Shown here piece by piece: positions 2,299 to 33,258 of a DNA stretch of 46,093 bases. Each line of letters starts with the position of its first letter. Positions within the stretch are counted from its first letter, which is position 1. The stretch comes from a virus. The notes beneath the pieces are model-generated. The model did not search any database. It was not told where the DNA came from and saw nothing but the letters and a program-made list of their open reading frames with translations. Made by a program: the position numbers and the translations under genes. The DNA lies in IMG/VR virus record IMGVR_UViG_3300031825_000366, positions 1-46,093 of that record. The stretch is one strand, 5' to 3'.

Positions 2299-2958
2299 CT
2301 ACGATCCGTTCGTCAGCCGGCGCCATTCGTCGGCCGGAAGATGGAACCGGTAGCGGGCCGCCCACTCGACATCGACATCCTCGATATCGCGGGCGTTGGC
2401 GCTGACTAGCGTGTACAGCCCCGGCTCGGAACCGCGCTTCAGCCTCTTGATGTAGGTTGGGCCGTCCTGCACCTTCACGACGCAGATCTTGCCGATGAGT
2501 TGCTCCGGGCCGGCGGCGTCGCGTAGGTACCCGACAAGATCGCCATCTTCGAACATGGGAAGCATGGAGTCGCCGCGCACGATCACCCCGACCGTGCCGT
2601 GCCGTACCGGGAAGTCCACCTGCACCACGTCCAGGCCCGCCCCCTTCTCATGGTCGTCGATGGCGTGCACCTCGGCGCCGGCACCGACATAGCCGACGAC
2701 ACGGACCTCTTGGTCAGGCTTTCGAACCCGGCGGCGCCCGGCGATTTCGGCCACTTCCATGCTATCGATGTGCACATCCTCTTCCATGACGGATGCATAG
2801 AGGGTGCGGATCTTGTCGCGGGTCTCCCCGCGCGGATCTTGCCCATCGCGGAACCATCGCGTCACGGTCGGCTGAGAGACCTCAAGCGCGACCGCTAGCT
2901 CGGTCTTGTTCCAGCCTTTCGCGGCCATGATGGCGGAGAGCATCTGCGTGACGGTCAT
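2299..2958 (-). CDS. CI-like prophage repressor (XRE HTH + S24 peptidase)
   Basis: 219 residues. The N-terminal HTH (about 5-50; KTELAVALEVSQPTVTRWF) binds DNA, and a LexA/S24 domain fills about 85-210. The likely nucleophile is Ser131 in RGDSMLPMFEDGD and the general base Lys171 in TYIKRLKRG. A probable self-cleavage bond is Ala93-Gly94 in GYVGAGAEV. All parts of an SOS-cleavable repressor are present, so induction by RecA is expected. The start ATG (2958) lies 6 bp after the -10 of its promoter, so the mRNA is probably leaderless, as for lambda cI from pRM. Operator 2968-2981 between its -35 and -10 implies autorepression. Confidence 0.95.
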   Translation of the reverse strand: MTVTQMLSAIMAAKGWNKTELAVALEVSQPTVTRWFRDGQDPRGETRDKIRTLYASVMEEDVHIDSMEVAEIAGRRRVRKPDQEVRVVGYVGAGAEVHAIDDHEKGAGLDVVQVDFPVRHGTVGVIVRGDSMLPMFEDGDLVGYLRDAAGPEQLIGKICVVKVQDGPTYIKRLKRGSEPGLYTLVSANARDIEDVDVEWAARYRFHLPADEWRRLTNGS

Positions 2959-3051: not shown

Positions 3052-3288
3052 ATGACACCGATGCAGCACATCCGCAAATCGCTCCTCCGCATTTCGCAAT
3101 CGGAGATGGCCGCCATTACGTCAACGACGCAGGCGACCGTCTCTCGCTGGGAGACGGGGGAGCTATCGCCCGACCTGACGCAGATGGCGCGCATCCGTGA
3201 AGAGGCGGTTTCCAGGGGTGTCGAGTGGGAAGACCGGTTCTTCTTTGAAGTCTTGGCCGCCCCCGAACAGGCAGGGAGCGCGGCATGA
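3052..3288 (+). CDS. Cro-like XRE-family regulator
   Basis: 78 residues with one helix-turn-helix (about 8-45; SEMAAITSTTQATVSRWETG) and no peptidase domain. Divergent from the repressor across the operator array, it is the first gene of the rightward early transcript, the Cro position. It should compete for the ATRCGYNNRCGYAT operators. No good Shine-Dalgarno precedes ATG 3052 or the in-frame ATG 3061, consistent with a leaderless or nearly leaderless mRNA. It overlaps the next gene by 4 nt. Confidence 0.88.
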   Translation: MTPMQHIRKSLLRISQSEMAAITSTTQATVSRWETGELSPDLTQMARIREEAVSRGVEWEDRFFFEVLAAPEQAGSAA

Positions 3289-3998
3289 GTAAGCCCCTCG
3301 GCCACAAAGCCTATGGCTCCATCGCTCATCTGCCGGACAGCCGCATGGGGCCGGCCGATCATCATTGCCATGCCGGGCAATCGGTCATCTGCACCGAGAA
3401 GCGCCGCGACAGACACGACACGATCATCGTGCTGGAGAAGGTGGACGGCGCGTGCTGCTCCATCGCGAACATTGACGGCCAGATCGTGCCGTTGATCCGC
3501 GCCGGATTTCGGGCAGAGGAGGCGTTCTACGAGCACCTGCGGATGTTCGGGATTTGGGTGAACGCCCAGCCGGATCGCTTCGACTTCATCGCGCCTGGCT
3601 CCCGCATCGTGGGCGAGTGGATGGCCCTCGCACACGGCACGGTCTATTCGTCCCTGCCCGAAGACCCCTTCATCATCTTCGACTATTTCGACGGCCGCGT
3701 ACGCCGTCCCTATGGGGATGTGCAGGGCGCCGCGTTCCTCGCCGATCTGAAGCATGCGCCTGTCCTCTCCGAAGGTGGCCCAGTTTCGATCTCGGACGCC
3801 CTTGGGCTGATGGGGCCGGAAGGCGAGTTCGGCGCGAGCGGCGGTCCCGAAGGCGTCGTCTACCGGGTGGAGCGGAAGGGCGAGGTGGACTTCCTCGCCA
3901 AGTACGTCCGCCCCGACAAGGTGGATGGCGCCTACCTGCCGGAGATCACTGGCGCGCCTGCCGTCTGGCATTGGCCTGAAGGGCGGAGGGCCGCATGA
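3285..3998 (+). CDS. RNA ligase family nucleotidyltransferase
   Basis: 237 residues with the covalent nucleotidyltransferase motifs in order: motif I EKVDGAC with the AMP-accepting Lys52, motif III-like GEWM (110-113) and IFDYFDG (131-137), motif IV EGVVYR (189-194) and motif V with FLAKYVR (Lys206). This is the fold of Rnl2/DRB0094-type RNA ligases, which seal nicked RNA through adenylated intermediates. In phages such enzymes repair tRNAs cut by host anticodon nucleases. This phage also carries two tRNA-Ser genes, which fits a tRNA-maintenance role (inference). It starts 4 nt inside the Cro-like gene, so it is expressed very early. Confidence 0.85.
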   Translation: MSKPLGHKAYGSIAHLPDSRMGPADHHCHAGQSVICTEKRRDRHDTIIVLEKVDGACCSIANIDGQIVPLIRAGFRAEEAFYEHLRMFGIWVNAQPDRFDFIAPGSRIVGEWMALAHGTVYSSLPEDPFIIFDYFDGRVRRPYGDVQGAAFLADLKHAPVLSEGGPVSISDALGLMGPEGEFGASGGPEGVVYRVERKGEVDFLAKYVRPDKVDGAYLPEITGAPAVWHWPEGRRAA

Positions 3999-5270: not shown

Positions 5271-5321
5271 GCGCGGCATGTGGTGGCTCAATCTCGCGGA
5301 ATGGCTGGGGAGGAAAGACCG

Positions 5322-6125
5322 ATGAACCAGAGCGTGCTTGCCGAACGCCTCCCGAGCGAGGCCGAGCGCAACCCCATCGTCCGCATCATGGACGGCGAGG
5401 CGATGGCCGATAGCCGCGACGTGGCGGCATACTTCGGCAAGGAGCACCGGCGCGTGCTCCAGTCGATCCGTGAGATCCATTGCTCGGACGAATTCCGCCG
5501 GCACCATTTCGTGCCGTTTAAAATCAATGACTTGAGCGGGGAGAGCACGTCGCACGTCCTGATGACACGGGATGGCTTCGTGTTCCTCTGCATGGGGTTC
5601 ACGGGCGAGAAGGCGGCGCGCTTCAAGGAAGCCTACATCGCGCAGTTCAACCTGATGGAAAGCGAGCTGCGCCGCCGCCCGACTGCGCCCCTCCTTCCGG
5701 ACTTCAATGATCCGGTTGCCGCTGCGCGGGCTTGGGCGGACGAAGCTGAGGCTAAGCGCATCGCCCAGTCGAAGACCGCTCAACTCGAAGCGGCGGCGGC
5801 CGAGATGGCGCCGAAGGTGGAAGCGCTCGCCCGCATTGCCGAAAGCGAAGGGTCGTTCTGCATCACCGATGCCGCGAAGACCCTGCAGGTGCCCCCGAAC
5901 GCCCTGTTCAAGTTCCTTCGGTCCCACGGATGGATCTACACCCGCGTCGGCTCCAGCCAGGAAGTGGCCTACCAGTCCAAGCTCGCCTCCGGCCTCCTCG
6001 AGCACAAGACCACCACCGTCACCCGCTCGGACGGATCGGAGAAGACCGTCACACAGGTGCGGGTGACGCCGAAGGGGCTGACCCGCCTTGCCCAGGAATT
6101 CCAGCCGGACGTGAAGCTGGCTTAA
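5322..6125 (+). CDS. Phage antirepressor: Rha N-domain + KilAC C-domain
   Basis: 267 residues from ATG 5322, which follows a strong GGGGAGGAAAG Shine-Dalgarno; a longer frame from 5280 is possible. The N-terminal ~110 residues are a phage regulatory Rha domain (DSRDVAAYFGKEHRRVLQSI, then TRDGFVFLCMGFTGEKA). A coiled linker with AWADEAEAKRIAQSKTAQLE follows, then a KilAC domain (EGSFCITDAAKTLQVPPNALFKFL to the end). Such proteins antagonise repressors or reprogram transcription after infection. A second, KilA-N antirepressor is at 29990-31138. Confidence 0.9.
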   Translation: MNQSVLAERLPSEAERNPIVRIMDGEAMADSRDVAAYFGKEHRRVLQSIREIHCSDEFRRHHFVPFKINDLSGESTSHVLMTRDGFVFLCMGFTGEKAARFKEAYIAQFNLMESELRRRPTAPLLPDFNDPVAAARAWADEAEAKRIAQSKTAQLEAAAAEMAPKVEALARIAESEGSFCITDAAKTLQVPPNALFKFLRSHGWIYTRVGSSQEVAYQSKLASGLLEHKTTTVTRSDGSEKTVTQVRVTPKGLTRLAQEFQPDVKLA

Positions 6126-6864: not shown

Positions 6865-7187
6865 GCTTCGTATGGTCAACGTTCGATGAGGCGCTGTTGC
6901 GGGAAATGCATGCGGAGGGCAAGTCCGACATGGACATTGCCGCGAAGTTTCTCGAACTGGGCCGCCCTCGCACCGAGAAGTCGATTTCAGGGCGCCGTGC
7001 CAGACTTCGCCTGAAGGTCAAGAAGAGGTTGGTCGCGAAGCCGAGCCCGCGCCTTGGCATGAGGAAGGACATCCACGATCTGCCTCCGCTCAATGAGCCC
7101 TGCACCTTCAACTACAGGGCGATGGATGCAGCTTATCGCGCCGCCGTCCTGGCTGCGCATCCGCTGATCAAGGCGGGGGTGCTGTGA
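6861..7187 (+). CDS. Small HTH/SANT-like protein
   Basis: 108 residues starting at ATG 6861, overlapping the rusA stop by 4 nt. The N-terminus ([19 protein letters not shown], then [20 protein letters not shown]) resembles a Myb/SANT-like or GcrA-like helix-turn-helix. The C-terminal part is not recognised. Probably DNA-binding. Confidence 0.7.
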
Positions 7188-7672
7188 TGGAAATCAACAT
7201 CGCAGAACTACAGCGCCAACGCCTTGAGGCTAAGGCCATAAAGGCCCGGCTCTACGGGGTGTGGCCGCCCAAGAAAAGCTACCGTGTCGAGCCCAAGCCT
7301 GCGCAGACGCAGCCACCGTCACCCCACGCTGAACGGGACTGGCTGAATGTCAACTCCGACAAGGTGAGCCTGCCGTGGATCACCACATCGTCGGTGATCG
7401 AGGTGGTGAGTGAACACTTCGGCATGACCAGGGCCGAACTCCTGGCATGTCGCCGGAAGGCCTCCATCGTGAAGGCCCGCCAGATCGCCATGTACCTGGC
7501 CAAGACCCTGACGCTGCGCTCGCTGCCGGAGATCGGCCGGCGCTTCGGCGGCCGCGACCACACCACCGTGCTGCACGCGGTGCGCAAGATCACTCGGCTC
7601 ATTGCCGAGGATGCCGGGTTCGCAGCGGAGATCACCACGCTCTCGATGAAGATCACGGGAGGCGCGACGTGA
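7184..7672 (+). CDS. Stand-alone DnaA domain IV-like protein
   Basis: 162 residues from GTG 7184 (or ATG 7187). The C-terminal ~95 residues match the DNA-binding domain IV of the initiator DnaA, including [19 protein letters not shown], the signature helix that reads DnaA boxes. There is no AAA+ domain; the N-terminal ~65 residues are a proline-rich linker. A DnaA DNA-binding domain without ATPase could compete for DnaA boxes or mark a phage origin (inference). It is translationally coupled with its neighbours. Confidence 0.88.
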
Positions 7673-16000: not shown

Positions 16001-17977
16001 ATGAACAGGGCTTATTCTATCCTCGCCATCAAGGCGGTGGACGATGACGAACGGGTCATCCGGGGGATCGCGACCACTCCCGATCCGGACCGCGTGGGAG
16101 ACATCGTCGAGCCGCTTGGCGTATCCTTCACCAATCCGATGCCCCTGCTGTGGCAGCACGACCATAAGTCGCCGGTGGGCACCGTCACGTTCGACAAGCC
16201 GACGAAGACCGGGATCACCTTTGAGGCCCGCCTGCCGAAGGTCATGGAAGCGGGCGCCTTGCGCGACCGGATCGATGAGGCGTGGCAATCCGTCAAGCTC
16301 GGGCTGGTTCGGGCCGTGTCTATCGGCTTTCGCGCCGTCGAATACGCGTTCATGGACGACGGCGGCGTCCGCTTCGTCAAGTCCGAAGTCTATGAGCTTT
16401 CACTGGTCACGATCCCGGCAAACGCCGACGCGACCATTACCGCAATCAAGTCGATTGATGCCCCTTTGCTCGCCGCGCTCGGCAAGGAGCCGAAGGCCGC
16501 TGATCGACCTGTCCATCCCGGCGCCTCGGGAAAACCCACCAAGACAGTGAACCTGAGGCCGAAGGAGGCCAAATCCATGTCCAAGACCATTCAGGAGCAG
16601 ATCTCTGCTCTGGAAGCCAAGCGCGCCGCGAACGCCGCCCGCATGGCCGAAATCATGCAGAAGGCGACCGAGGAAGGCCGCACCACCGACGAGGCAGAAC
16701 AGGAGGAGTTCGACGCGCTGGACGCCGAGAACGCCCCGATCGAAGCCGACCTGAAGCGCTTCCGCGCCTTGGAGAAAGCCAACATCGCTTCCGCAAAGCC
16801 TGTCAACGGCGGCAATGCCGACGACGCCAGCCGTTCGCGGGCCACTGGCCCGAGTGTGTCGGTGAAGAACATCGTCCTGCCCAAGGGCACCGTCTTCGCC
16901 CGATACGTCGGCGCGCTGGCGAACGCCCGCGGCAACCGCTTCGAGGCGGCCGAGTTCGCCAAACGCTGGCAGGATTCGACCCCTGAGGTTGGCGCCATGC
17001 TCCGCATGCCCACCGACGTGATCGAAAAGGCTGCGGTTGCGGCCGGCACGACCACTGATTCGACTTGGGCTGCGCCTCTGGTGCAGTACCAGAACATGGC
17101 CAGCGAGTTCATCGACTACCTCCGGCCCCTGACCATCATCGGGCGGATGAACGGCTTCCGCCGCGTCCCCTTTAAGGTGAAGGTGCCGCGGCAGACCGGC
17201 GGCGCATCCGTCAACTGGGTCGGTGAAGGCAAGGTGAAGCCGCTGTCCGCGCTGGCGTTCGACAGCCTTACGCTCGACTTCGCCAAGGTCGCTGGCATCG
17301 TCCCCCTGACCGAGGAGCTGGTGCGTTTTTCCAGCCCGGCGGCCGAGGAGCTGGTGCGCTCCGACCTCGCCAGCGCCATCGCGCAGTTTATCGACGCCGA
17401 GTTCATCGATCCGTCCAATGCGGCGACCGATGTGTCTCCTGCCTCGGTGACCTACGGCGTCTCGGCGGTGACCGCGACCGGCACCACGGCGGCGGCGTTC
17501 CGCGCCGACGTGAAGTCCATGTTCGCCGCGATGCTGGCGGCCAATCAGCAGGTGACCGCCGGATACTGGGTCATGACGCAGACGCAGGCGCTCGCCCTGT
17601 CGCTGATGCAGAACTCTCTCGGCCAGCCGGAATTTCCCGGCATCACCATGACCGGCGGCACGCTGCTGGGCTTCCCGGTGATCACCTCGGAAAACCTGCC
17701 GGCTTCCACCGGCTCGCCAGCCGATGGCTATCCCATCATCTTCGTCATGCCGGGTGAGATCCTGCTGGCGGACGATGGTGGTGTGTCCATCGACATGAGC
17801 CGCGAGGCCTCGCTGCAGATGGAGAGCACCCCGGATTCCCCGTGGACCGCCACCACCGTCACCGTGAACCTGTGGCAGCACAACATGGTGGCGATCAAGG
17901 CCGAGCGCTACATCAACTGGAAGCCGCGCCGCTCCACCGCGTCGGGCATCATCGCCGGTGCCAAGTACGCCGAGTGA
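16001..17977 (+). CDS. HK97-type prohead protease fused to major capsid protein
   Basis: 658 residues. Residues 1-170 are the serine prohead protease (His53 or His55 in WQHDHKSPVG, Ser107 in RAVSIGFRA). A linker and a coiled delta-like scaffold region (about 195-270, SMSKTIQEQISALEAKRAAN) precede the HK97-fold capsid protein (about 300-650, with WAAPLVQYQNMASEF and ITMTGGTLLGFPVITSENLP). Normally these are two genes; the fusion must be self-processed. It directly follows terL, whereas the portal gene is displaced 5.7 kb downstream. Confidence 0.95.
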   Translation: MNRAYSILAIKAVDDDERVIRGIATTPDPDRVGDIVEPLGVSFTNPMPLLWQHDHKSPVGTVTFDKPTKTGITFEARLPKVMEAGALRDRIDEAWQSVKLGLVRAVSIGFRAVEYAFMDDGGVRFVKSEVYELSLVTIPANADATITAIKSIDAPLLAALGKEPKAADRPVHPGASGKPTKTVNLRPKEAKSMSKTIQEQISALEAKRAANAARMAEIMQKATEEGRTTDEAEQEEFDALDAENAPIEADLKRFRALEKANIASAKPVNGGNADDASRSRATGPSVSVKNIVLPKGTVFARYVGALANARGNRFEAAEFAKRWQDSTPEVGAMLRMPTDVIEKAAVAAGTTTDSTWAAPLVQYQNMASEFIDYLRPLTIIGRMNGFRRVPFKVKVPRQTGGASVNWVGEGKVKPLSALAFDSLTLDFAKVAGIVPLTEELVRFSSPAAEELVRSDLASAIAQFIDAEFIDPSNAATDVSPASVTYGVSAVTATGTTAAAFRADVKSMFAAMLAANQQVTAGYWVMTQTQALALSLMQNSLGQPEFPGITMTGGTLLGFPVITSENLPASTGSPADGYPIIFVMPGEILLADDGGVSIDMSREASLQMESTPDSPWTATTVTVNLWQHNMVAIKAERYINWKPRRSTASGIIAGAKYAE

Positions 17978-27822: not shown

Positions 27823-28263
27823 ATGGCGAAGCCCACCACGTTCCGGGGCACGTCGCTGCTGATCAAGCTCGGCGACGGCGCATCTCCGGAAACCTTCGAT
27901 TTCCCCTGTGGCCTGACTACGCAGGGGTTCAACCGCTCGGCAGAATCCAGCGATACTGTGGTTCCGGATTGTGATGACCCGGATGCCGCAGCATGGACCG
28001 AGCGCGAAATTTCAACCCTGTCTTGGGAGGCCACTGGATCTGGGGTCCTTGCCGATGAGGCTGTTACCATCTGGGATGCGTGGTTCACCTCCGGCATCGC
28101 GAAGAACGTCCAGATCGACGTGGGCACAGTGACGGCCGGTCGACGCTATACCGGACGGGGGATTCTCACCGCCTACAATGTCACGGGGGAGCGAGGCACG
28201 CGGGTGCAGGTGGAAGTCACCATTTCCGGTGACGGAGAACTTGTGGCAGCGGACCTGACCTGA
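27823..28263 (+). CDS. Major tail tube protein
   Basis: 146 residues, beta-rich: TTFRGTSLLIKLGDGASPET, DFPCGLTTQGFNRSAESSDT, then a central sandwich ending VQVEVTISGDGELVAADL. Fits the phage tail tube (TP901-1/GTA) family. Position between terminator and chaperone genes agrees. Confidence 0.9.
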   Translation: MAKPTTFRGTSLLIKLGDGASPETFDFPCGLTTQGFNRSAESSDTVVPDCDDPDAAAWTEREISTLSWEATGSGVLADEAVTIWDAWFTSGIAKNVQIDVGTVTAGRRYTGRGILTAYNVTGERGTRVQVEVTISGDGELVAADLT

Positions 28264-28688
28264 TGCCCAGCTTCGACGCTCGCGTGACCATCGATTGGGG
28301 CGACGGCGAGCACGTCTTCCGTCTGGCCTTCGCCCAACTCCTGGAGCTGCAGGAGAAGACCGACGCCGGGCCGCTGGAGCTATTCCAGCGCATAGGCGGC
28401 GGACGCTGGCGTGTGATGGACCTTCGGGAGACCATCCGCCTCGGCCTTATCGGCGGCGGCATGGACCCCGCCAAGGCAATCGTTCTGGTGCGGCGCTATG
28501 TGGAGCAGCGCCCGCTTTCGGAAAGCGTGCCCGTGGCATTGGAGATTCTGACCGCCGCAATCGCCATCCCGGAGAATGAATCGCCGGGAAAAGCTCCGGC
28601 GGGGGAGGAGACGGGCGCCTCTCCGCTTCCGCCGTCTATGGATGCGGCGCCATCCTTGGGCTCGGACCAGATGCCGTCGACCGAATGA
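28263..28688 (+). CDS. Tail assembly chaperone (GTA gp10-like)
   Basis: 141 residues. The N-terminus VTIDWGDGEHVFRLAFAQLL and ELQEKTDAGPLELFQRIGGG match the gene-transfer-agent gp10/DUF3356 family. The C-terminal ~35 residues are Pro/Ser-rich. With the next small gene it forms the usual two-gene chaperone pair upstream of the tape measure, here separated from it by an insertion. Confidence 0.85.
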   Translation: MPSFDARVTIDWGDGEHVFRLAFAQLLELQEKTDAGPLELFQRIGGGRWRVMDLRETIRLGLIGGGMDPAKAIVLVRRYVEQRPLSESVPVALEILTAAIAIPENESPGKAPAGEETGASPLPPSMDAAPSLGSDQMPSTE

Positions 28689-28825
28689 GCCTGTTTCAGC
28701 TATCGGCGTATGTCACCGGGTGGAACAAGTCCCATGGTGACGGCAAACCGGAGCCCCCCACGGATGATGAGTTTGATGCGATGCTGGTCGCGAGCGCTGA
28801 GAGGGATTTGAAAGCGAGCGGCTAG
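28685..28825 (+). CDS. Second tail assembly chaperone, short
   Basis: 46 residues: SLFQLSAYVTGWNKSHGDGK and TDDEFDAMLVASAERDLKA. It begins in the stop of 28263-28688 (ATGA). Small proteins of this type follow the GTA gp10-like chaperone. The stop TAG 28823-28825 overlaps the end of the minus-strand cargo gene. Confidence 0.75.
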   Translation: MSLFQLSAYVTGWNKSHGDGKPEPPTDDEFDAMLVASAERDLKASG

Positions 28826-29244
28826 CCCCACTTTGCGCTAATGATTGAGCATGACAGGCTGCTGGCCTGTTTATCGATAAACCCAAGATTAAAGTCTTTT
28901 ACGGTTTTTGAACTTTTTCCCATAACAGCCTCATATACAGTGTCAGTCTTTATATCTATCAGTGTACCACTATTTGCATAGAGCTGGCATTTTATGTCTA
29001 TGTCTCTTATGGTCCGCGAATTGTCATTTATTATTTTAATAGTGACAATCGCAACAGAATTGAACCCTCCGCGCTTCCATGAAACTGTCTTCAACCCCAT
29101 TGCCGCTTCTGGCGCGGGTGGAAGATTCGGCGTTTCTTGGGGCTGCACATAGGCGGCAGGAGGTGGGCGCTTCTCCATTTCCATCATAACGCCTACCACA
29201 ACGAGAATGATTAAAACCATGATCGCTATGGCCCGTTGGGACAT
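28822..29244 (-). CDS. Membrane-anchored cargo protein, AT-rich
   Basis: 140 residues. One N-terminal transmembrane helix (AIAIMVLIILVVVGVMMEME) without lipobox, a Pro-rich spacer, and a beta-rich periplasmic-type domain with two Cys near the end (KCQLYANSG, SLSCSI). GC content is clearly lower than in neighbouring genes, and it is on the opposite strand inside the tail operon: a typical moron expressed from the prophage. Possible roles are envelope modification or superinfection exclusion (inference). Confidence 0.72.
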   Translation of the reverse strand: MSQRAIAIMVLIILVVVGVMMEMEKRPPPAAYVQPQETPNLPPAPEAAMGLKTVSWKRGGFNSVAIVTIKIINDNSRTIRDIDIKCQLYANSGTLIDIKTDTVYEAVMGKSSKTVKDFNLGFIDKQASSLSCSIISAKWG

Positions 29245-29288
29245 GGCCGTTTCTCCCCCAGAATTAAGGGCTGCACGCTAGCACCGCT

Positions 29289-29660
29289 TCAATCTGAGGT
29301 GGAGTCACCCTTCAACGCCGCGCTTCGTCGTCGCAGCCGTTCACGCGTCGCCTCGTTCTGGCTGATGATTTCCCGCTTCTTCAGCACGTCGGTGACAACG
29401 CGCTCAAAAATGGCTTCGATCTCGGTTTCGAAGGCCCATTCTTTTGCCTGCTCTTCTAGTCGGTCCAGTCTGGCGCGCAGATTTCTCTGCTCATGCTCCA
29501 AGTCCACGGCTTCGATCTCGTGGCCGCTCATAAAAGAGCGTTCGAGCCTGTGAATGATTTCCGCGGTCATGGACCGCTTGTTGCCACGAGCTGCGGCCTC
29601 GACCTTTTCTCTGAGATCGTTCGGGAACCTGAGCCTGAAATGAGGGTCTTCGCGCGACAT
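29289..29660 (-). CDS. Arc/Mnt-type ribbon-helix-helix repressor with long coiled coil
   Basis: 123 residues. Residues 1-45 (PHFRLRFPNDLREKVEAAAR, then KRSMTAEIIHRLERSF) are an Arc-family RHH. The rest is a heptad helix (EHEQRNLRARLDRLEEQAKE and beyond) like the Mnt tetramerisation tail. It is divergent from an Arc-like gene and a KilA-N antirepressor across a 13-bp inverted repeat, matching the mnt position in P22 immI. Confidence 0.88.
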   Translation of the reverse strand: MSREDPHFRLRFPNDLREKVEAAARGNKRSMTAEIIHRLERSFMSGHEIEAVDLEHEQRNLRARLDRLEEQAKEWAFETEIEAIFERVVTDVLKKREIISQNEATRERLRRRSAALKGDSTSD

Positions 29661-29685
29661 GCCTCACGCATGGCCAAAATTGCGC

Positions 29686-29736
29686 TTGACGGCAATGCCA
29701 CACGGTTAGATAACGATGATGTATAACCGTGTGGCA
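29686..29736. promoter_or_regulatory. immI-like promoter and 13-bp inverted-repeat operator
   Basis: TGCCACACGGTTA (29696-29708) and TAACCGTGTGGCA (29724-29736) are perfect inverted repeats with a 15-bp spacer. A plus-strand promoter TTGACG (29686-29691), 17 bp, GATAAC (29709-29714) has the left arm in its spacer and the right arm just past -10, so binding by the RHH proteins should shut off the antirepressor. Confidence 0.85.
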
Positions 29737-29747
29737 AAGGAGGGCTA

Positions 29748-29987
29748 ATGTCTCGTGCAGACAGCCATTTCCGTCTCAGGCTCCCGGAGCCGGAGCGCGC
29801 ATTCGTTAAGCAGGAAGCGCAGAGAAATTCCCGTTCTATGACGGGCGAGATCATCCAGGCCATTCGCGCCCGGATGCAGGCAGCGACGGGGGTCGTGTCG
29901 GCAAACTCTACCCCCGCCGCTGCTCATTCCCACTCCGACGCCGTGCAAGGCGCCGGGCAGTTCCACCCCCAGCATCAGGAGTGCTGA
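29748..29987 (+). CDS. Arc-type ribbon-helix-helix regulator
   Basis: 79 residues. SHFRLRLPEPERAFVKQEAQ and SRSMTGEIIQAIRARMQ are the RHH. The C-terminal tail is Ala/His-rich. It follows a strong AAGGAGG Shine-Dalgarno and immediately precedes the antirepressor, like P22 arc before ant. Confidence 0.9.
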   Translation: MSRADSHFRLRLPEPERAFVKQEAQRNSRSMTGEIIQAIRARMQAATGVVSANSTPAAAHSHSDAVQGAGQFHPQHQEC

Positions 29988-29989
29988 AC

Positions 29990-31138
29990 GTGACGAGCAA
30001 TCATATCGCAGTCCCCGCCCTCGTTTTCAACGGCGTCGAGATCCACGACCGGAGCGAAAAGCTGAGCCTCACCGACATGTGGCGGGCCGCCGGTTCGGAC
30101 CACGCTCGGGAGCCGGCGAAGTGGCTGTCGTCCGCCGACGCCGCCCGCTTCATTGAGGCCGTCGCTGTCATCCTCGGAAATTCTGAGGATGAGATGGTGA
30201 AGACGGTTCGCGGCGGTCGGACCCCCGGCACTTGGGCTCACTGGCAGATCGCGCTGGCTTACGCCAAGTACCTGTCCCCCGAGTTCCACATGCAGTGCAA
30301 CGTGGTGATCCGCGAGCGGATGGAGGGCAAGCCGTCCGGTGGGCTCCCTCCCGAGGTGCTGGAGATGATCCGCCGGGACGGCGGCATCTCCCGCATGCTC
30401 GCCCACAAGGTGACGGAGCAGGGCAAGGTGCAGGAAGAGCAGAGCCGGGCGCTCGCCGTCATCGGCGAAGCGGTCAACGCTCTGGTCGCCATCGTGCAGC
30501 CTTCGGTCCCCGGCGTCGTCATCCGCCACGGCCGCACGGCCGGCGCCATCCTCAAGGCCAACGGCTTCACCAAGTGCCCGATGAGCCTCGGGAAGTGGTT
30601 CGGGAATCGTCTCGAAGCGGCTGGATGCCGTGTCGAAGGCCGCGTGGATACCGGCGTCTGCCGTGCCCGCCTGTTCGACCCGGACAAGGCGGAGGCGTGG
30701 CTCAAGAACGGCGGCCGTGCGTCGGTGGAGATGAAGCTGGCGGAGCGGAGGGGGCAGGGCGCGCTTGCCCTCACCGGCCCGCGCAACGTCCCGGCGCCGC
30801 GCGGCGAGCCGGCCTTTCCGATCATCCCTTCCGACATCTACCGCGACGGCGTTGGCGCCATCTTCATGGACGGCGTGCCGGTCTTCTTCGACATCAAGGA
30901 TACGAAGATCGGCGAGGGCGACCGTGCCGTGGTGGTGACTGCGGCCGGCGACGTGAAGGTGGATACACCGCGGCGCCATTATGACCCTGCCCATCAGCCG
31001 ATGGGGCCGCGTAGCGCAATGGCCTCTCCGCAGATGGAGGCGGTGCCCGGGCGGCGTGACCCGATCCCCGTGGAGTGGGCCTGCGTCATCCTCGGCAAGG
31101 TGCTTGAGCGCAACAACGTGGTCCGCCTACCGGCCTGA
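29990..31138 (+). CDS. KilA-N domain antirepressor
   Basis: 382 residues from GTG 29990 (AGGAG 8 nt upstream); GTG 29981 is an alternative. The KilA-N domain (about 20-110) shows SEKLSLTDMWRAAGSD, and WAHWQIALAYAKYLSPEFHM. A helical middle is followed by HGRTAGAILKANGFTKCP, which resembles a phage antirepressor C-domain, and a beta-rich end. It is controlled by the Arc/Mnt operator and ends just before an intrinsic terminator. Confidence 0.88.
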   Translation: MTSNHIAVPALVFNGVEIHDRSEKLSLTDMWRAAGSDHAREPAKWLSSADAARFIEAVAVILGNSEDEMVKTVRGGRTPGTWAHWQIALAYAKYLSPEFHMQCNVVIRERMEGKPSGGLPPEVLEMIRRDGGISRMLAHKVTEQGKVQEEQSRALAVIGEAVNALVAIVQPSVPGVVIRHGRTAGAILKANGFTKCPMSLGKWFGNRLEAAGCRVEGRVDTGVCRARLFDPDKAEAWLKNGGRASVEMKLAERRGQGALALTGPRNVPAPRGEPAFPIIPSDIYRDGVGAIFMDGVPVFFDIKDTKIGEGDRAVVVTAAGDVKVDTPRRHYDPAHQPMGPRSAMASPQMEAVPGRRDPIPVEWACVILGKVLERNNVVRLPA

Positions 31139-31160
31139 CGCTTCACATCCCGAACCGACC

Positions 31161-31187
31161 AAGCCGCCCCTCACCGGGCGGCTTTTT
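31161..31187 (+). terminator. Intrinsic terminator between antirepressor and tape measure
   Basis: Perfect 9-bp stem AAGCCGCCC (31161-31169) with GGGCGGCTT (31176-31184), 6-nt loop, run of T. It ends 13 bp before the tape-measure ATG, so late transcription must read through it or restart after it. Confidence 0.92.
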
Positions 31188-31200
31188 CATGAGGCTATAG

Positions 31201-33258
31201 ATGGCCGCGACCGACATTGAACGCCTCGTTGTCCAGATCGAGGGACAAACCGCCAAGTTTGAAAAGGCGCTCGCCCGCATGGAAGGTCGTTCGGCGGCCT
31301 CGGCGAAGAAGGTCGAGAAGACCTTCGCCAGCATGCAGCAGCGGATGGACAGTTCGTTCGCCGCGGTGGGGTCCTCTCTTAAGGGCGCCCTTGCCATCGC
31401 GGGCATTGGCCTTGGCGCGTCCAACATCCTGCAATACGTCGACGCATGGACCAAAGCGACCAATGCGCTCAAGGTGGCTGGCCTGTCCGGTACCGAGTTG
31501 ACCGGCACGCTTGACGCCCTTTATGCCGCGGCGCAGCGGCAGGGCGCGCCACTTGAGGCGATCACTACCCTCTATGGCCGCGCCGCGGCGGCGCAGAAAG
31601 AGCTGAAGGCCACCAGTGGCGAGCTGATCCAATTCACCGAAGACGTTGCTGTGGCACTGCGCGTGGCTGGGACGGCGCCGGAGGAGGCGAGCGGCGCACT
31701 GCTGCAGCTGGGGCAACTCCTCGGCTCCGCACGCGTCCAGGCCGAGGAGTTCAATTCGGTCAATGAAGGTGCGCGGCCCATCCTCCAGGCTGTCGCCAAC
31801 GGCATTCAGGAAGCAGGTGGGAGCGTCTCGAAGCTGAAGCAGCTGGTCACTGAGGGAAGCATTTCCAACGTGGCTTTCTTCAAGGGCTTTCAGGCCGGGG
31901 CGCAGTCCATCCGGGATCAAGCCGCATCGGCCGAGCCGACCGTATCGCAGGCGTTCACGCGCATGCAGAACGCCATCATCAAGCTGGTCGGGGAGGTGAA
32001 CAGTGCGACGGGGTTTTCCAGAAGCTTTGTAAACGACCTTGATGCCATCGCCGCTGGTGCAAAACGGGCAGAGGGGCCGATCCAGTTCCTTATAGACGTC
32101 CTCAGAAAGCTGAATGAACTTCAGGATTATGCCAACAAGAACGGGTTACAGCTTGGCGTAAAGCTGAACGATGCTCTGTATGGGAACGGGAACGGCAGCG
32201 TATCTGATCTTCGCGGCGCGATGAAAGGATATGACTACAAAGACACCGTCAAGACATCCAATGAGTTTGACAAAGCGCTCGGATTTTCCAACCCGTACCC
32301 GCCGACCAAGTCAATAAGGGCGGCTGATTATCCTGTCGTCGGAGCTAAGCCGAAGGGAGGGGGCAACTCCGAAACCCAATACGCCAGCGAAACGCGGCAG
32401 CTCCACGAACGCACGCAGGCCCTAGAGCTTGAGGCGGAGACGCTGGGCAAATCCACCTATGAGGTGGAGCGCGCCAAGACGGCTATGGACCTGCTCAATG
32501 CTGCCAAGTCGGACGGCACCAAGATCACGCCGGATGTGTTGGCAGGGATCAACGCCGAGGCAGAAGCCTACGCTCGCGCGGCCGAGAAGGTGGAGAAGGC
32601 CAAGGAGGCCTACAAATTAGTGGGGGAGGTGCAGGACGGTTTGGCGTCTGCTTTCTCTGGTTCCATCTCGGCAATCGCCAAGGGCGAGAGCGCGATCGAT
32701 GCGCTCACCAATTCACTTGGGCGCCTCATGGACCAGCTTCTCGACATGATTGCGAAGCAGATTTTCAAGCAGTTGTTCCAATCCATTGGCGCATCCGGCT
32801 TTGGGTTCTCTTCGGGCGGCACGGTGGGAGGCACGTCTGGCGCCAGCTATGTGAAGGCCGCAGACGGCGGTGCCATTCGCGGCCCTGGCTCGGCTCGATC
32901 GGACAGCATCCCGGCCATGCTCTCCAACGGCGAGTTCGTGGTCAACGCCGCCATGGCGAAGCGTTACGGCGCGCTATTGGAGGCCATCAACTCCGGCAAG
33001 TTCCGCCTGCCGCGCTTCGCGACGGGGGGCAGCGTCGGCGGGCCGGTCTCTCGCAGTTCCGGCGTCGGCGGCGACATGATCGTCAACATCCAGAATAACG
33101 GCGCGCAGGTGGAGACCCGCGAAAGCCGGCGCGGCAACAGTCGAGTGCTGGATGTGATCGTGGAGCAGAAGCTCAATTCGGCGATCTCCTCCGGCAAGAC
33201 CGACAAATCCAATTTTGGGCGCTTCGGGCTTCGCCCCAGCCCCACGCGGAGGGGCTGA
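31201..33258 (+). CDS. Tape measure protein
   Basis: 685 residues, of short type. N-terminal coiled coil (FEKALARMEGRSAASAKKVE) and the conserved tape-measure domain (LQYVDAWTKATNALKVAGLS, QEEFN-like QAEEFNSVNEGARPILQAVA). A helical middle, hydrophobic stretches, and a C-terminal domain with IPAMLSNGEFVVNAAMAKRY as in lambda-like tape measures. It fixes tail length and passes into the host envelope. GAGG in the terminator tail serves as Shine-Dalgarno. Confidence 0.93.
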   Translation: MAATDIERLVVQIEGQTAKFEKALARMEGRSAASAKKVEKTFASMQQRMDSSFAAVGSSLKGALAIAGIGLGASNILQYVDAWTKATNALKVAGLSGTELTGTLDALYAAAQRQGAPLEAITTLYGRAAAAQKELKATSGELIQFTEDVAVALRVAGTAPEEASGALLQLGQLLGSARVQAEEFNSVNEGARPILQAVANGIQEAGGSVSKLKQLVTEGSISNVAFFKGFQAGAQSIRDQAASAEPTVSQAFTRMQNAIIKLVGEVNSATGFSRSFVNDLDAIAAGAKRAEGPIQFLIDVLRKLNELQDYANKNGLQLGVKLNDALYGNGNGSVSDLRGAMKGYDYKDTVKTSNEFDKALGFSNPYPPTKSIRAADYPVVGAKPKGGGNSETQYASETRQLHERTQALELEAETLGKSTYEVERAKTAMDLLNAAKSDGTKITPDVLAGINAEAEAYARAAEKVEKAKEAYKLVGEVQDGLASAFSGSISAIAKGESAIDALTNSLGRLMDQLLDMIAKQIFKQLFQSIGASGFGFSSGGTVGGTSGASYVKAADGGAIRGPGSARSDSIPAMLSNGEFVVNAAMAKRYGALLEAINSGKFRLPRFATGGSVGGPVSRSSGVGGDMIVNIQNNGAQVETRESRRGNSRVLDVIVEQKLNSAISSGKTDKSNFGRFGLRPSPTRRG

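Follow-up and report, generated by a model that had tools for sequence, protein, structure and literature searches.

An immI-like module with a KilA-N gene and a candidate sar-like RNA in the tail operon of a phage genome

Our analysis revealed that positions 28822-31187 of a 46,093-nt viral sequence (the whole stretch of DNA analysed, hereafter the window) form a regulatory block between the genes for the tail chaperone and the tape measure. The reading of this block as an immI-like module is well supported; it is best read as an “ant moron” of the immI type, whose putative antirepressor is a non-homologous KilA-N protein and which includes a candidate sar-like RNA. We consider it probable that the block acts as an independently regulated second immunity module in the tail operon, by the mechanism proposed here. 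The immI region of P22 is the textbook case of such a locus and is known chiefly from enterobacterial phages of the P22 type.

In the prophage, the Mnt-like and Arc-like repressors would bind an inverted repeat at the candidate promoter Pant and keep the arc-KilA-N operon off. Upon infection or induction, Pant would be briefly active and KilA-N protein would be made. This protein would then inactivate a lysogeny repressor, which could be the CI-like S24 repressor of the phage itself or one encoded by another prophage, until the operon was turned off by Arc. A sar-like antisense RNA, starting at TTGAAA-N19-TATGAT in the KilA-N gene and ending at a hairpin in the Arc-like gene, would limit translation of KilA-N, as sar does for P22 ant.

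Gene order, repressors and operator

The order of elements in the window is chaperone gene, leftward cargo gene, leftward mnt-like gene, operator, arc-like gene, hairpin, KilA-N gene, terminator and tape-measure gene. The position between tail chaperone and tape measure, described in the initial annotation of this DNA, was confirmed by domain matches on both flanks: a TAC_11 tail chaperone (28263-28688) on the left, whose gene is overlapped by a 46-aa ORF (28685-28825), and a TMP_3 tape measure (31201-33258) on the right. The KilA-N gene is followed, as had also been described, by a plus-strand Rho-independent terminator at about 31161-31187, which closes the module with a 9-bp stem and a run of Us; its hairpin has a folding energy of -19.1 kcal/mol and a z score of -4.8.

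Two genes of the block encode ribbon-helix-helix (RHH) repressors that match the Arc family of Pfam (PF03869). The leftward repressor (29289-29660, minus strand; 123 aa; E 2.5e-13) showed 34% identity to P22 Mnt over 70 aa (E 4e-12), and its top PDB match was 1mnt, the Mnt repressor (E 3.6e-6). By sequence comparison, it is a Mnt homologue. The second repressor (29748-29987, plus strand; 79 aa; E 1.2e-7) is Arc-like by Pfam and gave no BLASTP alignment with P22 Arc; its gene is the first in the candidate antirepressor operon. The initial annotation had described two Arc-family regulators facing each other. The family assignment holds; the genes do not face each other and are divergent, so that the 13-bp inverted repeat sits between their starts.

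This repeat is perfect, as had been reported, and constitutes a candidate operator at 29696-29736, with the arms TGCCACACGGTTA (29696-29708) and TAACCGTGTGGCA (29724-29736), 15 bp apart. None of 100 shuffles of the intergenic region matched the 13-bp repeat, and its core CCACACGGTT has no other exact copy anywhere in the window. The top-scoring intergenic promoter site, TTGACG-N17-GATAAC (29686-29714, plus strand; shuffle p 0.06), is a candidate Pant, assigned by promoter consensus only. The left arm of the operator lies in the spacer between the -35 and -10 elements of this candidate, and the right arm lies over the expected start. The operator overlaps the divergent promoter region, placed by consensus, as in P22 immI, where Oarc is inside Pant and Omnt just downstream. 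Most of the related modules combine a palindrome between the divergent genes with a TTGAC-type -35 element. The palindrome sequence varies from module to module, which would fit differing repressor specificities.

The initial annotation had missed two parts of the block, a palindrome at the 3' end of the Arc-like gene and a third leftward gene, at 28822-29244 (minus strand). This gene lies in low-GC DNA and encodes a 140-aa protein with one N-terminal TM segment that matches phrog_14275, a family of unknown function (E 5.9e-9). The phages and viral contigs searched held no relatives of this protein, and the only relatives were three plasmid-collection records. The gene has the place and direction of sieA/orf59a of P22, and superinfection exclusion by its product is a guess based on this position. 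The genes beside the Mnt-like gene vary among the modules: they encode a TIR-domain protein (L144 3121-3978, minus strand), a HicB antitoxin (L091 3212-3610, minus strand), a Rap1a immunity protein (L089 4047-4394, minus strand) or a DUF4236-SH3-Excalibur protein (L098 3344-4165, minus strand). The modules may have a variable slot here that takes up defence or exclusion genes, similar to the one occupied by sieA/orf59a in P22.

The KilA-N protein and its possible target

The candidate antirepressor is encoded at 29990-31138 on the plus strand (PF04383, E 1.9e-14), with an alternative GTG start at 29981. The protein consists of an N-terminal KilA-N domain, a helical middle part and a predicted compact domain at residues of about 180-257, followed by a low-confidence C-terminal extension that is absent from the relatives aligned. 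The structure model has low overall confidence (pLDDT 57), and a fold comparison with this low-confidence model gave no significant PDB match. P22 Ant is made up of P22_AR_N and P22_AR_C domains. By Pfam, the window protein is not a P22-type Ant, as it matches KilA-N alone.

KilA-N proteins are not all antirepressors. The annotation of a distant relative, P1 KilA, describes a non-essential protein that kills the host, and P1 records name the KilA-type relative either KilA or anti-repressor. The phage also already has a Rha-ANT protein. Both points favor the explanation that the KilA-N protein is a host-directed or toxic DNA-binding protein silenced by the two RHH repressors, and not an antirepressor. 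We regard this explanation as improbable, in view of a control architecture that is that of an antirepressor locus and of a CI-like repressor that is present as a possible target. We favor antirepressor activity as the putative function of the KilA-N protein.

The possible target is a CI-like HTH+S24 repressor encoded at 2299-2958 (minus strand). A lambda-like switch had been proposed for this phage; the CI-like repressor is indeed present, and a Cro partner is weakly indicated. The early Rha/KilAC protein noted at the same time is also present (5280-6125, plus strand; Rha+ANT/KilAC). Three further features of the genome were observed. An ORF with an RNA ligase domain (3285-3998, plus strand; PF09414, E 1.8e-13) adjoins the CI-like repressor gene, a small protein (7184-7672, plus strand) carries a DnaA C-terminal DNA-binding domain (PF08299, E 7.8e-29), and prohead protease and major capsid domains lie in a single 658-aa frame (16001-17977, plus strand).

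A conserved hairpin within the Arc-like gene

The second palindrome forms a conserved hairpin at 29880-29923, with 14-bp arms containing one mismatch and a 16-nt loop. Nearly all modules have a hairpin at the same place, with a stem of 9-14 bp and a loop of 14-20 nt, mostly about 18. Hairpins with exact arms of at least 9 bp were found in 14 of 21 modules, versus 3 of 57 control windows. Among 12 aligned cases, 93.2% of the stem cells pair and 14 cells are changed on both sides; none of 500 shuffles was as good on both measures. For the arm-exchange test, 19 of the 21 module hairpins were kept, and in 20 cases including P22, 96.5% of the cells pair, versus a mean of 55% (maximum 70.5%) after arms were exchanged between sequences. 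The cases in both analyses have common ancestry and are not independent, and the hairpins had been chosen for their pairing, so that the shuffles somewhat overstate significance.

Differing codon frames and an external covariance-model match are stronger arguments than the shuffles. We rejected the possibility that the hairpin is a by-product of protein conservation because it falls in all three codon frames across the modules and its stem covaries. At the reported threshold, the only site in the window recovered by the covariance model was that of the module hairpin. When four genomes were scanned with this model, one further site turned up in Pseudogemmobacter bohemicus, where a small RHH-like ORF carries the hairpin at its 3' end. 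This locus (L214 1461-1649, minus strand) is possibly a prophage remnant. Its RHH assignment was made by eye, the Arc HMM built here did not report the ORF, and no KilA-N gene was found in the 3 kb of this locus that were covered.

A lone RHH gene with a hairpin in one bacterial genome, together with the frequent decay of ant morons in P22-like phages (PMC2629481), could indicate that the window module is a decayed or non-functional moron carried by chance. This is highly improbable for a module with all frames open, a perfect operator and a nearly perfect hairpin.

The hairpin was also compared with known RNAs. Even with E values up to 5 allowed, the Rfam sar model (RF00262) matched nothing in 28600-31300, whereas P22 matched it with E 7.6e-22, and we rejected identity with a known Rfam RNA, as no match was plausible. 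The module hairpin and the RF00262 sar RNA are alike in place and in the combination of a stem with an approximately 18-nt loop, but the covariance model detects no sequence similarity between them. The sar terminator of P22 is situated at the same place as the module hairpin, with an 18-nt loop between 7-bp arms.

On the minus strand, a candidate Psar-like promoter, TTGAAA-N19-TATGAT (30000-30030), lies just inside the KilA-N gene, the same relative place as that of P22 Psar. No control window of the KilA-N gene scores as high as this candidate, and 1 of 200 shuffles does. When all modules were analyzed, the antisense promoter signal was only mildly above controls and weak in many of them; we use this result as weak evidence. 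A minus-strand T-tract after the hairpin was not found in the window or in other GC-rich modules, and the window has none on either strand. The weak promoter signal and the missing T-tract are what would be expected if the same module used its hairpin only in the sense mRNA, coupling or blocking KilA-N translation or protecting the message, with no antisense RNA made. In contrast, the Acetobacteraceae-type modules have a clear T-rich tract (6-8 T in 10) after the hairpin on the antisense strand and none on the sense strand, which fits an antisense terminator. The P22 sar terminator occupies the same place, and both orientations of the loop are tolerated, a finding more readily explained by a sense/antisense pair. 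We consider the sense-only explanation rather unlikely, and we give a sar-like antisense RNA in the module about an even chance.

The tolerance of both loop orientations was seen in a comparison of the hairpin loops of the window (hairpin at 29880-29923) and of Pkon1 (L083, 19900-19939) with those of L088, L089, L090, L094, L097, L098, L107 and L173. The loops of the window and of Paracoccus phage Pkon1 match those of other GC-rich modules only as the reverse complement (0 of 2000 shuffles were as good), with p of about 0.22-0.24 for the forward orientation. An exchange between the stem arms flips the loop because the arms are inverted repeats. Such a flip would be harmless for a sense/antisense pair, since both loops change together.

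Insertion site, distribution and comparison with P22

An alignment-based search found many KilA-N relatives. Using HMMs built here, we found the order of leftward Mnt-like gene, intergenic operators, rightward Arc-like gene and rightward KilA-N gene at 26 loci, about 20 of them distinct and mostly alphaproteobacterial. This distribution and the existence of relatives whose junctions are without the module support the modular capture suggested in the initial annotation; cross-talk with other prophages, suggested together with it, is possible. In 46 relatives of the tail cassette, the gap between chaperone and tape measure does not exceed 220 nt in 18; the rest have larger gaps, with inserts. 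Among these 46 junctions, the module occurs only in the window and in a metagenomic relative (L091), at the same junction. In several relatives, a small ORF after the chaperone gene abuts the tape-measure gene, and the comparison with relatives lacking the insertion thus revealed an empty junction. The module is rare in host genomes: in two surveys of 385 genomes each, the hairpin search with strict filters gave one match, the centre genome itself, and the KilA-N search gave two, one of which was the centre genome.

The full order was found in two annotated phages, Pkon1 and Acetobacter phage phiAX1, both of which are isolated phages. Paracoccus phage vB_PkoS_Pkon1 (MK291442, p51-p53) has a leftward Arc-like gene, operators, a rightward Arc-like gene, a hairpin with the inverted loop and a KilA-N gene, in a module separated from the downstream tape-measure gene by a few genes. 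Its KilA-N protein is 44% identical to that of the window and has no C-terminal extension, and its operator sequence differs from that of the window. A text search of the Pkon1 paper (PMC6536676) found no mention of KilA-N or an antirepressor. Acetobacter phage phiAX1 (LC644973, 540-570) has a leftward Arc-like gene, palindromic operators, a rightward Arc-like gene, a hairpin and a KilA-N gene. It differs from the window in having one extra gene before KilA-N, an antisense T-tract at the hairpin and a location of the module after the morphogenesis genes. In the same phage, BCZ75921.1 (L084 9916-11700) is annotated as KilA-N DNA-binding, and Pfam gave only GDSL lipase domains at the threshold used.

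It is quite conceivable, at somewhat less than an even chance, that there is a second class of immI among the phages of Alphaproteobacteria, with control by Mnt, Arc and a sar-like RNA retained and a non-homologous KilA-N protein as the antirepressor. The loop would flip without loss of function in this class because the sense and antisense loops stay complementary. If this is true, the repressor-repressor-antisense control layer is a transferable unit, present at about twenty alphaproteobacterial phage loci, and the module hairpins make up a candidate family of phage antisense RNAs that is open to direct testing. What is new here is the candidate family of sar-like RNAs and the occurrence of a putative, non-homologous antirepressor in a known immI layout; our literature search found no paper combining immI with KilA-N.

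The Gifsy phages offer a functional analogy only, as their trans-acting antirepressors can coordinate the induction of several prophages (PMC3121763).

The closest comparison is with P22, where the order (BK000583) is 16, sieA (leftward), orf59a (leftward), mnt (leftward), operators, arc, sar (leftward), ant, terminator and 9. This region, comprising mnt, arc, sar, ant and sieA, has been described as an “ant moron” that varies among P22-like phages in their late operon (PMC2629481). An antirepressor locus among tail genes had been called unusual in the initial annotation. We rejected this view, as P22 immI itself lies between the late genes 16 and 9 and many other junctions hold inserts. The analogy with P22 mnt-arc-ant drawn there proved right, given the Mnt homology, the operator over the candidate Pant and the hairpin at the place of the sar terminator. 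Both modules lie inside the late operon and comprise leftward variable cargo, a leftward mnt gene encoding homologous Mnt proteins, operators over Pant (a candidate promoter in the window), a rightward arc gene, a hairpin at the sar position, a rightward antirepressor gene (a candidate in the window) and their own terminator. Unlike that of P22, the module of the window is GC-rich, encodes a KilA-N protein in place of P22_AR_N/P22_AR_C, has a hairpin that the Rfam sar model does not recognise and lies before the tape measure rather than the tailspike.
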